In this document: in pieces, positions 21,091 to 52,982 of the stretch | Position numbering within the stretch: position 1 is the first letter of the stretch | How the letters are laid out: each line of letters begins with the position of its first letter | Assembly (NCBI RefSeq): GCF_030704205.1 | Contig: NZ_CP131913.1 | Location: 2,604,001-2,668,000, forward strand | Reading direction: 5' to 3' | Length of the DNA stretch: 64,000 nt | Source: Halomonas alkalicola | GTDB lineage: Bacteria; Pseudomonadota; Gammaproteobacteria; Pseudomonadales; Halomonadaceae | Notes under the pieces: generated by a model | What the model was told of the DNA's origin: nothing | The model's input: only the letters and a program-made list of their open reading frames with translations | Databases searched by the model: none | Made by a program: the position numbers and the translations under genes

Positions 21091-24949
<3,859 letters not shown>

Positions 24950-24979
24950 GCGAACACTGTTGCCTCTGGCGGGAACCCG

Positions 24980-24997
24980 TGTAGGAAATCGCTGACA
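24980..24997 (+). promoter_or_regulatory. Candidate GacA upstream activating sequence
   Basis: TGTAGG-AAATCG-CTGACA matches the GacA/UvrY box TGTAAG-N6-CTTACA with one mismatch in each half-site and the exact 18-bp length. It lies 30 bp after eno and about 190 bp upstream of the predicted sRNA start, close to the distance known for rsmY/rsmZ in Pseudomonas. Confidence 0.55.
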
Positions 24998-25030
24998 ATT
25001 TGGCGAAGAGATTTGCTCGGGTTCAGCGGA

Positions 25031-25062
25031 AAGACCGATGCCTTTGGCGTCGGTCTTTTTTT
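25031..25062 (+). terminator. Terminator after eno
   Basis: A 12-bp stem AAGACCGA-t-GCC / GGC-g-TCGGTCTT (one G-T pair) with loop TTT and a run of seven T. A textbook intrinsic terminator that also separates the proposed GacA box from the sRNA promoter. Confidence 0.9.
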
Positions 25063-25145
25063 AACCATATGTTATTTAACGTGTTTTTTTGGATTTCCGC
25101 TGCTGGGCCAGCGCGCCGGTCGAGGTTGGTCGCCGTTGGTCGCGC

Positions 25146-25173
25146 TTGTGTTGCAATGCAGCTCTGCCACAAT
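25146..25173 (+). promoter_or_regulatory. Candidate promoter of the RsmZ-type sRNA
   Basis: TTGTGT (25146-25151), a 16-bp spacer and CACAAT (25168-25173), predicting a start near 25180. An AT-rich tract (about 25060-25100) lies between it and the GacA-like box, as in the IHF-bound linkers of Pseudomonas rsm promoters. Confidence 0.45.
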
Positions 25174-25179
25174 GAACTC

Positions 25180-25348
25180 GGGACAAGGGGGCAGCATTGC
25201 TGCTCCCGGCAGGATGCAACGGGATGCTGAGTGATGCGCCAGGTGCGGCAGGAGGCTGCTTCCGGGCAGGGAAGGCATCACGGGAGTCGGGCGGAGGGAG
25301 CCGCTCAAGGAACAGCTTGGAGCGGGCGGCCTGCGGGCCGCCTTTTTT
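25180..25348 (+). ncRNA. rsmZ: Candidate RsmZ/CsrB-type CsrA-sequestering small RNA
   Basis: About 170 nt between the predicted start and an intrinsic terminator (stem GGCGGCC/GGCCGCC, loop TGCG, six T; 25325-25348). It contains ten GGA triplets (starting near 25181, 25212, 25222, 25251, 25270, 25283, 25293, 25297, 25309 and 25319), about three times the number expected by chance. Hairpins include GGGGGCAGC/GCTGCTCCC (25187-25207) and CCGCTC/GAGCGG around AAGGAACAG. A GacA-like box lies at the expected distance upstream. The next genes are fdxA and mutS; in Pseudomonas aeruginosa rsmZ also lies next to fdxA. csrA is about 10 kb downstream. The call rests on motifs and synteny; no RNA family model was run. 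Confidence 0.65.
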
Positions 25349-25379
25349 GCCGGTGTTCTCCAGCATGGCAGGCAGAAGC

Positions 25380-25420
25380 AGGAACGCCGAATGTCGCGAG
25401 ACATTCGGCGTTCCTTTTTT
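25380..25420 (+). terminator. Second plus-strand terminator downstream of the sRNA
   Basis: A perfect 16-bp stem AGGAACGCCGAATGTC / GACATTCGGCGTTCCT with loop GCGA and a six-T tail. It reads on the plus strand; on the minus strand, the direction of fdxA, no T-run follows. It appears to be a back-up stop for transcription arriving from eno or the sRNA before it runs into fdxA. Confidence 0.85.
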
Positions 25421-25455
25421 CGTGCTGGCGCCCGCGTGCGAGGCAGGCGACGCTC

Positions 25456-25779
25456 TCAGCGCTCCAGCTGCTCGAGCTTGCCCGGCTTGCCGTCCCACTC
25501 CTCGGCGTCGGGCAGCGGGTCCTTCTTCTCGCTGATGTTGGGCCATACCTCGGCGAGCTCGGCATTGATCTCGATGAACGGCTCCTGGCCCTCCGGCAAT
25601 TCGTCTTCCGAGAAGATCGCCTCGGCGGGACACTCCGGCTCGCACAGGGCGCAGTCGATGCACTCGTCGGGGTGGATCACCAGGAAGTTGGGGCCTTCAT
25701 AGAAACAGTCCACCGGGCACACCTCGACACAGTCGGTGTACTTGCACTTGATGCAGTTCTCGGTGACGACGAATGTCAT
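25456..25779 (-). CDS. fdxA: Seven-iron ferredoxin FdxA
   Basis: Small electron carrier with one 3Fe-4S and one 4Fe-4S cluster, 107 residues, Azotobacter FdI type. N-terminal cysteines Cys9, Cys12, Cys17, Cys21 and Cys25, and a second group Cys40, Cys43, Cys46 and Cys50 ([11 protein letters not shown]), fit the 7Fe pattern. The acidic C-terminal extension (about 55-107) is usual in this subfamily. It is monocistronic, with mutS upstream on the same strand but 323 bp away. Confidence 0.96.
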
Positions 25780-35271: not shown

Positions 35272-35469
35272 ATGCTCATCCTGACCCGCCGAGTCGGCGA
35301 GACCCTGATGATCGGAGACGACATCACCGTGACGGTGCTGGGCGTCAAGGGGAATCAGGTCCGGATTGGCGTCAATGCCCCCAAGGACGTCGCCGTGCAC
35401 CGCGAGGAGATCTACCAGCGCATCCAGCGCGAGAAGGGCGAGGAGGCCGCCTCCGGCCACGACGACTGA
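35272..35469 (+). CDS. csrA: Carbon storage regulator CsrA/RsmA
   Basis: Homodimeric RNA-binding protein that represses or activates translation by binding GGA motifs in mRNA leaders. 65 residues. The RNA-contact residues are present: Leu4, Arg6 and Arg7 in MLILTRR, and the VAVHREEIY segment with Arg44. The ATG at 35272 has AAGGAG 7 bases upstream; the preceding in-frame extension from 35209 is not conserved. The same window carries a candidate sequestering RNA near 25.2 kb. tRNA-Ser lies 80 bp downstream. Confidence 0.98.
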
Positions 35470-49270: not shown

Positions 49271-52200
49271 ATGCGCCTCAAGTCGATCCGCCTGGTTGGC
49301 TTCAAGTCCTTCGTCGACCCGGTCACGGTGCCCTTCGATGGCAACATGACCGCCATCGTCGGGCCCAACGGCTGTGGCAAGTCCAACATCATCGACGCGG
49401 TGCGCTGGGTCATGGGGGAGTCCTCCGCCAAGACCCTGCGCGGCGAGTCGATGACCGACGTCATCTTCAACGGCTCCACCGGCCGCAAGCCGGTGGGGCA
49501 GGCCGCCATCGAGCTGCTCTTCGACAACCGTGACGGCGCCATGGGCGGCATCTACGCCCAGTATGCCGAGATCGCCGTCAAGCGGGTGGTGACCCGCGAC
49601 GCCCAGTCCTCCTACTTCTTCAACGGCCAGAAGTGTCGCCGCCGCGACATCGCCGACCTCTTCCTCGGTACCGGCCTCGGTCCGCGCTCCTACGCCATCA
49701 TCGGCCAGGGCATGATCTCGCGCCTGATCGAGGCGCGCCCCGAGGAGCTGCGTGCCACCCTGGAGGAGGCCGCCGGCATCTCCAAGTACAAGGAGCGACG
49801 CCGAGAGACCGAGAGCCGCATGCGCCGCACCCAGGAGAACCTGGATCGCCTGGAGGATATCCGCGAGGAGCTCGACAAGCAGCTCGAGCGCCTCCGGCGC
49901 CAGGCCGAGGCCGCGCGCCGCTACCAGCAGCTCAAGAACGAGGAGCACCGGGTCAAGGGCGAGCTGGCCCTGCTGCGCGCCCGGGCCCTGCGCGCCCGTC
50001 AGGGCGAGGAGGAGAGCCGGGTCGGCGAGCTCGAGACCGCGGTGGAGCGCGAGGTGCTGGGACTGCGTCAGTGCGAGACTCGCCTCGAGGAGGCCCGGGT
50101 CGACCACGACCGCCTGGCCGCCGAACTCGACGCCGAGCAGTCACGCTTCTTCGAGACCACCACCGCCATCGCCAGGCTGGAGCAGGATCTCGAGCATGCC
50201 CGCGCCCGCGATGCCCAGCTGGCCCGCGACCTGGAGGCCGCCCACCGCGACCTCCAGGAGCTGGCGCGCCTGGGCGAGGACGACGGCGAGCGGCTGGCGC
50301 GCCTTGAGGAGCGCCTGGAGACCCTCACCCCGGAGCGCGAGGCCCTGGCCGAGCAGCTCGAGGAGCTGGAGGCGGCCCTCGAGGAGGCCGAGCCCGAGGC
50401 GGAGGAGGCCGACGCCGCCTGGGAGGCCTTCAGTGAGCAGTGGCGCGAGGCGAGTCGCGAGGCCGAACGCGGCCAGGATCGCCTGCGCGAGCAGGAGTCA
50501 CGCCTGGAGCGCCTCGGCGCCGATGAACAGCGCCGCCGCCAGCAGCAGGCGGAGCTGCCCGACATCGCGGCGCTGGCCGAGCAGCGGGCCGAGCTCGCCG
50601 AGCGGCTGGCCGAGCTGGAGCTCAGGCGCGAGTCCCTGGAGGCGCGCCGCGAGAGCCTGCAGCAGGCCCGCGACGCGGCCCGGGAGGCGGCCCGCGACAG
50701 CGAGGCCGCCCGCGAGGAGCAGCGTCAGCGCCGCAGTGAACTGCAGGGGGAGCTCGCCTCCCTGGAGGCGCTGATCCAGGCCGGGCTGGCCGATCACGAC
50801 GAGGCGCTGGATGCCCACCTGGCCGGGCTGGGCCTCGCCGAGGCTCCGCGCCTCGGCGAGTGCCTCTCGGTCGATGACGGCTGGGAGGCCGCGGTGTCCT
50901 GGGTGCTGGCGCCCTGGCTGCGGGCCCGACTGGCCTCCCTGGACCCCGCCGCCCTGACGGCGCCTCCGGCGGAGCTGGGGCTGGTCGAGGCGCGCGAGAG
51001 CGAGGCGCCCGCCGGCACCCTGGCGAGCCGCGTCCGGGGCGCGGGCGCCGCCGCCCGCTGGCTGGCGACCATCCGCTGCGTCGAGAGCCGCGAGGCCGCC
51101 TGGGCCGAGCGCGAGACCCTCGCCCCCGGCGAGAGCCTGATCACCCCCGACGGCCTCTGGCTGGGCGCAGGCTGGATGCGCCATCGCGGGCTGGGCGATG
51201 GCCCCGATGCCCTGCTGGTGAGCCGTCGCCGCCAGGCCGAGGCCGAGGCCGCCTGCGCGGCCGTCGAGTCTCGCCTGGAGGAGCAGGAGCGGCGGCTGGC
51301 CGAGCAGCTGGAAAGCGCCGAGCAGGCCGAGCGGGACCTGGAGGCGTGCCGCCTCGAGGAGCGCGACCTGGATCAGCAGCGCCAGCAGCTGGCGGTGCAG
51401 CAGAGCGGGCTGGCCAGCCGCCTGGAGCACCTGGAGGGCCGCGCCGCCGAACTGGCCGAGGAGCTCGCTGGCCTCGCCGAGGCGCGCGAGGAGGCGCGGC
51501 TCGACATCGAGGAGGCGCGCGACCGCTGGCAGCAGGCCATGACGCGGCTCGAGGAGGGCGCCGAGCGCCGCGAGCGGCTCGAGCGCGAGCGGCAGGCCGC
51601 CCGGGAGCGGCTCGCCTCGCTGCGGGCCCGCCAGCGCCCCCTGGCCGAACAGCTGCAGCGCCTGGCCCTCGAGCAGGAGCGCCTGGCCGCCGAGCGCACC
51701 GGCCTCGCCGAACAGCAGGGGCGCGCCGCCGAGGCACGCGAACGCCTGCAGGGGCGCCGCGAGGAGCTCGAGGAGGAGCGCGAGCTGCTGCGCGAGCCGG
51801 AGGAGGAGCGCCGCGAACGCCTCGACGAGCTGCTCGACCGCCGCGAGCGCGAGGAGCGCGCCCTCAACGCGGTGCGTGCCCGCTCCGCCGAGCTGGTGGA
51901 GCGCCTGCGCGAGGACGAGCAGGCGCGCCAGGGCCATGAGCGCCGCCTGGAGGGCATTCGCGAACGCCTCCAGGAGGCGCGCATGCAGGTTCAGGCCCTG
52001 CACCTCAAGGCCGAGACCCAGGACGAGCAGCTGCGCGAACTGGGCCTCGAGGAGCGCGAGCTGGCCGAGGGGCTCGACCCCAACGCCACCGAGTCCGCCT
52101 GGCAGACTCGCCTGGAGGAGCTCGGCGAGCGCATCCGCCGCCTCGGCGCCATCAACCTCGCGGCCATCGAGGAGTATGACCAGCAGGCCGAGCGCCGCGA

Positions 52201-52756
52201 CTACCTGGAGGCCCAGCATGCCGAGCTCAGCGAGGCGCTGGAGACCCTCGACCGGGCGATCCGGCGCATCGACCAGGAAACCCGGGCCCGTTTCCGCGAC
52301 ACCTTCGAGCGGGTCAACGCCGGCCTGCAGTCGCTTTTCCCCCGGGTCTTCGGCGGCGGAACCGCATGGTTGACCCTGACCGGGGAGGATTTGCTGGAGA
52401 CCGGGGTCGCCATCATGGCGCGCCCGCCCGGCAAGAAGAACAGCACCATTCACCTGCTCTCCGGTGGCGAAAAGGCGCTGACCGCCCTGTCGCTGGTCTT
52501 CGCCATCTTCCAGCTCAACCCGGCCCCCTTCTGCATGCTGGACGAAGTGGATGCGCCGCTGGATGATGCCAACGTGGGTCGCTATGCGAAGCTGGTGAAG
52601 GAGATGTCGGAGAGCGTCCAGTTCATCTATATCACCCACAACAAGATCGCCATGGAAGCCGGCGATCGACTGATGGGGGTCACCATGCAGGAACCGGGGG
52701 TGTCGCGGCTGGTATCGGTGGATGTCGAGGAAGCCGCCGCCCTCGCCGAAGCCTGA
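49271..52756 (+). CDS. smc: Chromosome segregation protein SMC
   Basis: 1161-residue condensin-type ATPase. N-terminal head with Walker A GPNGCGKSN (32-40), then a very long coiled coil extremely rich in Glu, Arg, Ala and Leu, a hinge (about 505-640) and a return coiled coil. The C-terminal head has signature LSGGEKAL and Walker B FCMLDEVDAPLDD (about 1089). It is the bacterial SMC type and not MukB; ScpA/B are not in this window. Followed by zipA and ligA, a conserved trio. Confidence 0.96.
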   Translation: MRLKSIRLVGFKSFVDPVTVPFDGNMTAIVGPNGCGKSNIIDAVRWVMGESSAKTLRGESMTDVIFNGSTGRKPVGQAAIELLFDNRDGAMGGIYAQYAEIAVKRVVTRDAQSSYFFNGQKCRRRDIADLFLGTGLGPRSYAIIGQGMISRLIEARPEELRATLEEAAGISKYKERRRETESRMRRTQENLDRLEDIREELDKQLERLRRQAEAARRYQQLKNEEHRVKGELALLRARALRARQGEEESRVGELETAVEREVLGLRQCETRLEEARVDHDRLAAELDAEQSRFFETTTAIARLEQDLEHARARDAQLARDLEAAHRDLQELARLGEDDGERLARLEERLETLTPEREALAEQLEELEAALEEAEPEAEEADAAWEAFSEQWREASREAERGQDRLREQESRLERLGADEQRRRQQQAELPDIAALAEQRAELAERLAELELRRESLEARRESLQQARDAAREAARDSEAAREEQRQRRSELQGELASLEALIQAGLADHDEALDAHLAGLGLAEAPRLGECLSVDDGWEAAVSWVLAPWLRARLASLDPAALTAPPAELGLVEARESEAPAGTLASRVRGAGAAARWLATIRCVESREAAWAERETLAPGESLITPDGLWLGAGWMRHRGLGDGPDALLVSRRRQAEAEAACAAVESRLEEQERRLAEQLESAEQAERDLEACRLEERDLDQQRQQLAVQQSGLASRLEHLEGRAAELAEELAGLAEAREEARLDIEEARDRWQQAMTRLEEGAERRERLERERQAARERLASLRARQRPLAEQLQRLALEQERLAAERTGLAEQQGRAAEARERLQGRREELEEERELLREPEEERRERLDELLDRREREERALNAVRARSAELVERLREDEQARQGHERRLEGIRERLQEARMQVQALHLKAETQDEQLRELGLEERELAEGLDPNATESAWQTRLEELGERIRRLGAINLAAIEEYDQQAERRDYLEAQHAELSEALETLDRAIRRIDQETRARFRDTFERVNAGLQSLFPRVFGGGTAWLTLTGEDLLETGVAIMARPPGKKNSTIHLLSGGEKALTALSLVFAIFQLNPAPFCMLDEVDAPLDDANVGRYAKLVKEMSESVQFIYITHNKIAMEAGDRLMGVTMQEPGVSRLVSVDVEEAAALAEA

Positions 52757-52982
52757 CGGGCTTGATGCCGAGGAATAAAAGGGGTAACAAGGAGAGTGGT
52801 CATGCTGCATTGCATGGATGCTAGGGGATCATCGAAGGGCGATTGCGCGGGGCATCGTCGACTCAGGGCAGGAAATCCCGGAGGGTTGACAAATAAAAAA
52901 AGTGGCCCCTTTTTTGGCGATCGCGCTATGCTATGGACGGACAACCATCAGGCATGGCGCCTAAGCGAAAGGCTGACGACCC

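Follow-up and report, generated by a model that had tools for sequence, protein, structure and literature searches.

In Pseudomonas, the gene of the small RNA (sRNA) RsmZ/PrrB lies convergently beside fdxA and combines a distal GacA-type box, multiple GGA motifs and a terminator. The CsrB and CsrC sRNAs of E. coli (RF00018 and RF00084; clan CL00106) are encoded at a different genomic location from the RNA described here, but their box type and box distance are alike, the csrB box, TGTGAGAGATCTCTTACA, being reported as centered at −183/−182 (excerpts of PMC4682653). In Marinomonas mediterranea, CsrB and CsrC are described as having a GacA box and as dropping in RNA-Seq levels in UvrY/BarA-type mutants (excerpts of PMC8523701), while the Alcanivorax dieselolei CsrR2, a CsrA-related sRNA adjoining a ferredoxin gene in the excerpted account of PMC9788540, is likened to the Halomonas RNA by this description. 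For Halomonas anticariensis, a review table lists GacS–GacA with outputs in quorum sensing, exopolysaccharide and biofilm, and gives the sRNA as "Unknown" (PMC7366521, in the section available). No description of an RNA from the Halomonas eno–fdxA gap was found in the accessible parts of the literature on Halomonas Gac/Csr sRNAs, including PMC12889724, PMC7366521 and PMC13414033. The locus analyzed here is a candidate for the missing Halomonas sRNA, with coordinates, boundaries and an alignment usable for an Rfam family, and it makes the Gac–Csr cascade testable in Halomonas. This genus is used in polyester and ectoine production.

The candidate lies between eno and fdxA in the window, that is, the whole 64-kb stretch of DNA that was analyzed (Table 1). 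It is very probably a GacA-activated, CsrA-sequestering RNA that corresponds in position and function to Pseudomonas rsmZ, with its transcription, GacA control and CsrA binding and titration predicted from the computed boundaries, conservation, covarying structure, GGA motifs, box and its spacing, synteny, and presence of gacA, gacS and csrA. In the proposed mechanism, phosphorylated GacA would bind the 18-bp box about 180–190 bp upstream and activate the promoter at 25146–25173. The resulting RNA of about 170 nt would display about ten GGA motifs, mostly unpaired, which would bind several CsrA dimers and take them off target mRNAs, and transcription would stop at the terminator at 25324–25349.

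Table 1. Features of the eno–fdxA gap and the csrA gene (window positions)
Feature	Position	Strand	Remarks
eno (enolase)	23657..24949	+	5′ neighbor of the small RNA
GacA/UvrY-type box TGTAGGAAATCGCTGACA	24980..24997	+	one mismatch per half-site
eno terminator hairpin with T run	25030..25062	+	from reading of the sequence; between box and sRNA promoter
−35-like TTGTGT	25146..25151	+	TTGAGA in many relatives
extended −10-like TGCCACAAT	25165..25173	+	conserved in relatives
small RNA of about 170 nt with ten GGA, predicted to sequester CsrA	25180..25349	+	
GGCAGGATGCAACGGGATG with two GGA	25208..25226	+	GGAs present in 68/70 and 70/70 sequences
stacked hairpin	25232..25280	+	helices 25232–25236/25276–25280 and 25238–25243/25262–25267; GGA at 25251 and 25270
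inner hairpin GCGGC-AGGAG-GCTGC	25245..25259	+	AGGA in loop; weaker support
hairpin with loop GAGGGA	25289..25306	+	two-sided changes in 4/5 pairs
small RNA intrinsic terminator	25324..25349	+	stem 25324–25343 and T run (terminator scan)
16-pair hairpin with T run	25380..25420		between small RNA and fdxA stop; probably fdxA terminator and backstop for the small RNA, a role read from its place
fdxA (ferredoxin)	25456..25779	−	convergent neighbor; synteny
csrA	35272..35469	+	preceded by alaS and a gene for aspartate kinase

The elements that the initial annotation had read in this gap were all located. The box TGTAGGAAATCGCTGACA with its one mismatch per half-site, the eno terminator, the AT-rich linker and the TTGTGT-16 bp-CACAAT element (CACAAT at 25168–25173) are at the positions claimed, and the box, said to lie about 190 bp upstream, has its center 191.5 bp from the predicted start. 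The ten GGA in about 170 nt were counted in 25180–25349, where the terminator stem was also found, and csrA, placed at 35.3 kb, was confirmed there. The eno hairpin is absent from the list of the terminator scan, and a sigma-70 scan of the window listed no promoter for the small RNA, so that the promoter assignment rests on conservation: the −10-like TGCCACAAT directly before the RNA is exact in 19 of 25 rows inspected and closely similar in the remaining 6. Because this promoter-like element is conserved, the small RNA is taken as an independent gene. An element of a read-through eno 3′ UTR, or a structured terminator region with no gene of its own, would be in keeping with the box starting 31 nt past the end of the eno stop codon and with the RNA being co-directional with eno; such a reading is exceedingly improbable, as the eno terminator hairpin stands in between and the promoter-like element is conserved right before the conserved core.

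The distribution of the RNA in Halomonadaceae was examined at the level of genomes and of gaps. The core of the window matches DNA in 149 of 201 family genomes, some of these matches covering the terminator only. Eno–fdxA gaps were taken from 87 loci having both genes, 81 of them unique and mostly picked by similarity, and a profile that was built up starting from the core of the window matched 80 of the 81, the exception being L062. A covariance model built from Halomonadaceae only, R1, matched 161 of the 201 genomes at E ≤ 1e-4, which is the fairer rate because similarity had guided the choice of most gap loci. The positive genomes belong to 16 of 24 genera, and 157 of the 161 have a single match (Infernal, stricter filters), while R1 found nothing in 40 of the 201 genomes and in eight of the 24 genera (g3, g4, g5, g14, g18, g19, g22 and g24). 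In the window, R1 scores 162 bits (E 1.8e-44). This is the one full-length copy in its own genome; the other 11 matches there at E ≤ 10 cover model positions 114–168 or less. The core set comprised 76 of the 80 profile-positive gaps (without L034 and L130–L132), and the 70-sequence alignment A1 additionally omits L121–L123, L125, L127 and L128; all ten omitted rows were later matched by R1.

Among nine named Halomonadaceae loci, R1 matched six; the other three, Modicisalibacter ilicicola and two from Salinicola, gave no match beside fdxA. The loci without such a match from Salinicola are L062, L225 and L227. The eno–fdxA gap of L062 is just 229 nt long and lacks both the RNA and the box, which suggests their joint loss. 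In Larsenimonas suaedae, three tandem copies of the RNA (60–74 bits) lie between eno and fdxA (L217:2141-2867, also L236). A locus of Cobetia amphilecti (L252) has a 59-bit RNA at 2018–2178 and a weak second R1 match at 2670–2731, with its sole good box at 2915–2932, about 190 bp before this second match; it possibly holds two RNAs.

The alignment A1 gave a consensus of 24 pairs in four helices. The data showed that 15 of these pairs underwent compensatory two-sided changes with pairing kept, each in at least one of the 70 sequences. Standard pairs occupied 97.7% of the cells, against 85.1% when partners were shuffled and at most 52.1% when they were slid, and the covariation score was 0.431, against 0.193 (shuffled) and at most 0.124 (slid), figures that are inflated by kinship among the sequences, which is equal in the slid control. 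The stacked hairpin had double-sided changes in 9 of its 11 pairs, and the 5′ hairpin formed at least five pairs in 70/70 sequences when the first 46 alignment columns were folded alone, a count with no shuffled control. The inner hairpin presenting AGGA appears only moderately supported by the alignment, with 71.2% of its cells paired and its number of two-sided pairs reached by 198 of 500 shuffles; the inspected rows of genus g11 have GTGA or similar at this place, and pairing in another register. The fold of the window sequence by itself had a z-score of −1.44, with 15 of 200 shuffles folding equally well, and since this is unexceptional, the case for the RNA rests on comparison. By that comparison, the small RNA is a real structured RNA, conserved in relatives beyond chance.

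The opposite strand of 25180–25349 has only 2 GGA against the ten of the RNA strand. Ten were reached in 13 of 2000 dinucleotide shuffles (mean 5.4), and in 8 of the 12,766 170-nt segments taken every 10 nt on both strands; three of these 8 are the small RNA locus itself and five start at 50,241–51,271, inside the open reading frame 49271–52756. The number of GGA per sequence was 8–13 among the 70 aligned sequences. Eight of the ten sites are found again, at most three columns away, in 66/70 sequences or more, the others in 51/70 and 27/70, so the annotation's proposal did not founder on a lack of conserved GGA motifs in relatives, the outcome that it had named as counting against it. When every second sequence (35 of the 70) was folded freely, the mean unpaired probability at GGA was 0.645 against 0.506 in shuffles, while for G and A overall it was 0.489 against 0.491. 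Conserved, preferentially unpaired GGA motifs are the pattern expected of a CsrA-binding RNA, and binding is predicted on that ground. An RNA that is G-rich, with a GC content of 68%, and whose GGA count is only moderately beyond that of dinucleotide shuffles could also be a trans-acting base-pairing sRNA of another class, in which GGA would reflect purine richness rather than CsrA binding. We consider this very unlikely, because the GGA columns are conserved while the surrounding helices change by compensation, the GGA motifs are less paired than in shuffles, and the RNA has the position of rsmZ and a GacA-type box whose distance is close to that of csrB.

The box is the only match to TGTAAG-N6-CTTACA with at most two mismatches in the 64-kb window. 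Its conservation across Halomonadaceae, which the annotation had proposed to check, was borne out: in the 81 unique gaps the best box had 0, 1, 2, 3 or 4 mismatches in 37, 28, 10, 3 and 3 cases, so that 75/81 gaps had at most two, compared with 9/243 mononucleotide-shuffled gaps, in a scan that allowed three consensus forms, two of them drawn from these same sequences. The distance from the box center to the predicted start had a median of 181.5 bp (quartiles 180.5–183.75, range 146.5–203.5, n = 76). The helical phasing of box–promoter distances gave a value of 0.04 with hand-picked cluster centers, which is suggestive only and was left unused. A good box was missing or poor at L130–L132 although the RNA is present there (81 gaps). 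In other loci the box was sought within 800 nt near fdxA, which was too short for Larsenimonas; its loci, scanned whole for that reason, showed no recognizable box despite the RNA.

The components expected to act on such an RNA were also identified. The csrA gene of the window is the only copy found in the genome. The best homolog of E. coli UvrY (G000:C1:535335-535961, 51% identity) was assigned as gacA, its best-matching NCBIfam family being UvrY/SirA/GacA with 276.9 bits (cut-off 280), and the best homolog of BarA (G000:C1:725416-727629, 37% identity) as gacS, with 609.7 bits to the BarA family (cut-off 890). Both pieces stay below the curated cut-offs, probably because trimmed tblastn hits were scored. 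The genome thus has the CsrA and the GacS/GacA pair that the CsrB/RsmZ class requires, and we infer, with the initial annotation, that the RNA titrates CsrA and is the partner of this csrA. A real RNA with a box read by another NarL/LuxR-type response regulator, and not by GacA, is very unlikely. The genome does encode at least five further, weaker UvrY-like matches (22–36% identity), and the window box deviates from the consensus by one base per half-site; against this, several loci of genus g11 carry the perfect palindrome TGTAAGAGATCTCTTACA, which agrees with the csrB site of E. coli, TGTGAGAGATCTCTTACA, in all but one base, and the best UvrY homolog is best matched, just under the cut-off, by the UvrY/SirA/GacA family itself.

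If GacA does read these boxes, its direct targets may extend beyond the RNA. The pattern TGTARGNNATNNCNKACA was composed when all three sites had already been seen. It occurs exactly at three places in the genome, which are the small RNA box, a box at an export gene and a box at a cyclase gene; with one mismatch it occurs at six more places, one of them a second cyclase box, and its strand matches numbered 13, compared with 3 for a control pattern read backwards. The export-gene box, TGTAGGAAATCACTGACA, is on the minus strand at G000:C1:451379-451396 (L043:1501-1518, L168), where it separates a Wza-type polysaccharide-export gene, with Poly_export and SLBB domains, from a small gene divergent to it. 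The cyclase gene, which encodes a membrane GGDEF diguanylate cyclase and lies behind a gene for an NA37-type nucleoid protein, has two boxes in tandem upstream (G000:C1:670418-670458; L041, L303), the second 23 bp on.

To extend this, 30 genus loci per gene, own included, were surveyed at a 12-bit threshold with a matrix from 77 sRNA boxes (leaving out L062, L130–L132 and six duplicate loci). At the export gene, 9 of 30 loci carried a box upstream, all among the 13 closest, with 8 at 21.7 bits or more and L169 at 14.4; the upstream sequence was incomplete in two of the 30 (L178 and L197). For the cyclase, 19 of 30 loci had a box, 15 of them at 18.5 bits or more, in a survey that counts the own species twice (L303 and L319). 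No box was found at the three closest other-species cyclase homologs (L304–L306, 78–81% identity), and no export-gene match in the same-species genome G511. The matrix gave zero matches in coding and downstream control sequence (74,958 and 67,089 bases). We give about an even chance to a forked GacA regulon, in which GacA would directly activate both matrix export and a c-di-GMP synthase while the RNA frees mRNAs from CsrA. In P. aeruginosa, a ChIP-on-chip study, as cited in the part of PMC4682653 available, found only rsmY and rsmZ as direct GacA targets, and later ChIP-seq, according to excerpts of PMC6610081, found many more, the pelB promoter included. Direct GacA control of matrix genes in Halomonas would hence be notable, but not unheard of.

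The class that the annotation had assigned, RsmZ/CsrB-type, is supported with a refinement: the position beside fdxA, the box, the GGA motifs and the terminator agree with it, while the Rfam PrrB/RsmZ and CsrB models gave no match. At gathering thresholds, Rfam found three tRNAs in the 64-kb window and nothing else. In 24800–25600, RF00166 (PrrB/RsmZ), RF00018 (CsrB) and RF00195 (RsmY) had no match at E ≤ 10, and CsrC (RF00084) matched in the window only a terminator fragment with 7.9 bits; hence the gathering score of RF00166 (44 bits) is not reached, nor are those of CsrB, CsrC and RsmY, which places the small RNA outside these families as Rfam defines them. Other names that scored low in 24800–25600, with ctRNA_pGA1 at the top, were below gathering, look like chance hairpin matches and were rejected. 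Elsewhere in the genome, RF00166 reached 18 bits at most, at a place (L001) that overlaps the end of a gene and a terminator. When 12 Halomonadaceae loci were scanned at E ≤ 1, CsrC matched one of them, L086, below its threshold (28.8 bits, E 2e-5).

The annotation places rsmZ next to fdxA in P. aeruginosa, and most of the pseudomonad loci show this arrangement: of 23 named Pseudomonadaceae loci, 20 have RF00166 adjoining fdxA (3/5 and 17/18; it is lacking in Atopomonas L235 and in Stutzerimonas L239 and L240), as do seven of eight further loci of the same family (label f21; exception L140). The Halomonas RNA shares this location. R1 matched 11 of the 27 RF00166 loci, always ending within 1 nt of Rfam's terminator end, with four of the seven f21 loci at 14.0–17.5 bits and seven of the 20 named loci at 12.4–19.2 bits; these scores are weak, and 16 of the 27 had no match. 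The order mutS–fdxA–RNA is common to the window and one pseudomonad genome (G442), where eno is not within about 17 kb of rsmZ. The Halomonas RNA differs from Pseudomonas RsmZ in having eno as its other neighbor, in its length of about 170 nt against the 133 model positions of RF00166, and in its helices and sequence. It is likely, as judged from position and sequence comparison, that the two share a common descent and that the small RNA is an rsmZ ortholog that drifted beyond the reach of Rfam.

A further R1 match in the window, at 52783–52916 in the smc–zipA gap (12.7 bits), was rejected, because its GGAs were not conserved in 10 relatives having both genes; the conserved part of that gap resembles a promoter before zipA. 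There (52754–52982), TTGACAAA...GGCCCTTTTTT...GCGCTATGCT precede zipA and appear to be well preserved in most of these 10 relatives.

Outside Halomonadaceae, most other fdxA loci fetched showed neither a box nor an R1 match. R1 did match beside fdxA in L211 (26.7 bits) and L210 (26.1 bits), and weakly in L138 (17.4) and L212 (11.1), and none of these RNAs had an Rfam match at gathering. Among 80 named loci, weak R1 matches outside Halomonadaceae and Pseudomonadaceae were obtained in L268 (16.8 bits, without RF00166), L271 (13.6) and L238 (11.1), while L289 had a terminator fragment only. The Halomonas locus suggests for fdxA-linked CsrA-sponge RNAs of this order a greater age and a wider spread than Rfam records. 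L210 is a Marinomonas-like locus, the nearest among the named ones being that of Marinomonas ushuaiensis (78% over 622 nt). The fdxA-linked RNAs of L210, L211, L138 and L212 are GGA-rich, and L211 and L138 apparently have two RNAs each, with a box between them.
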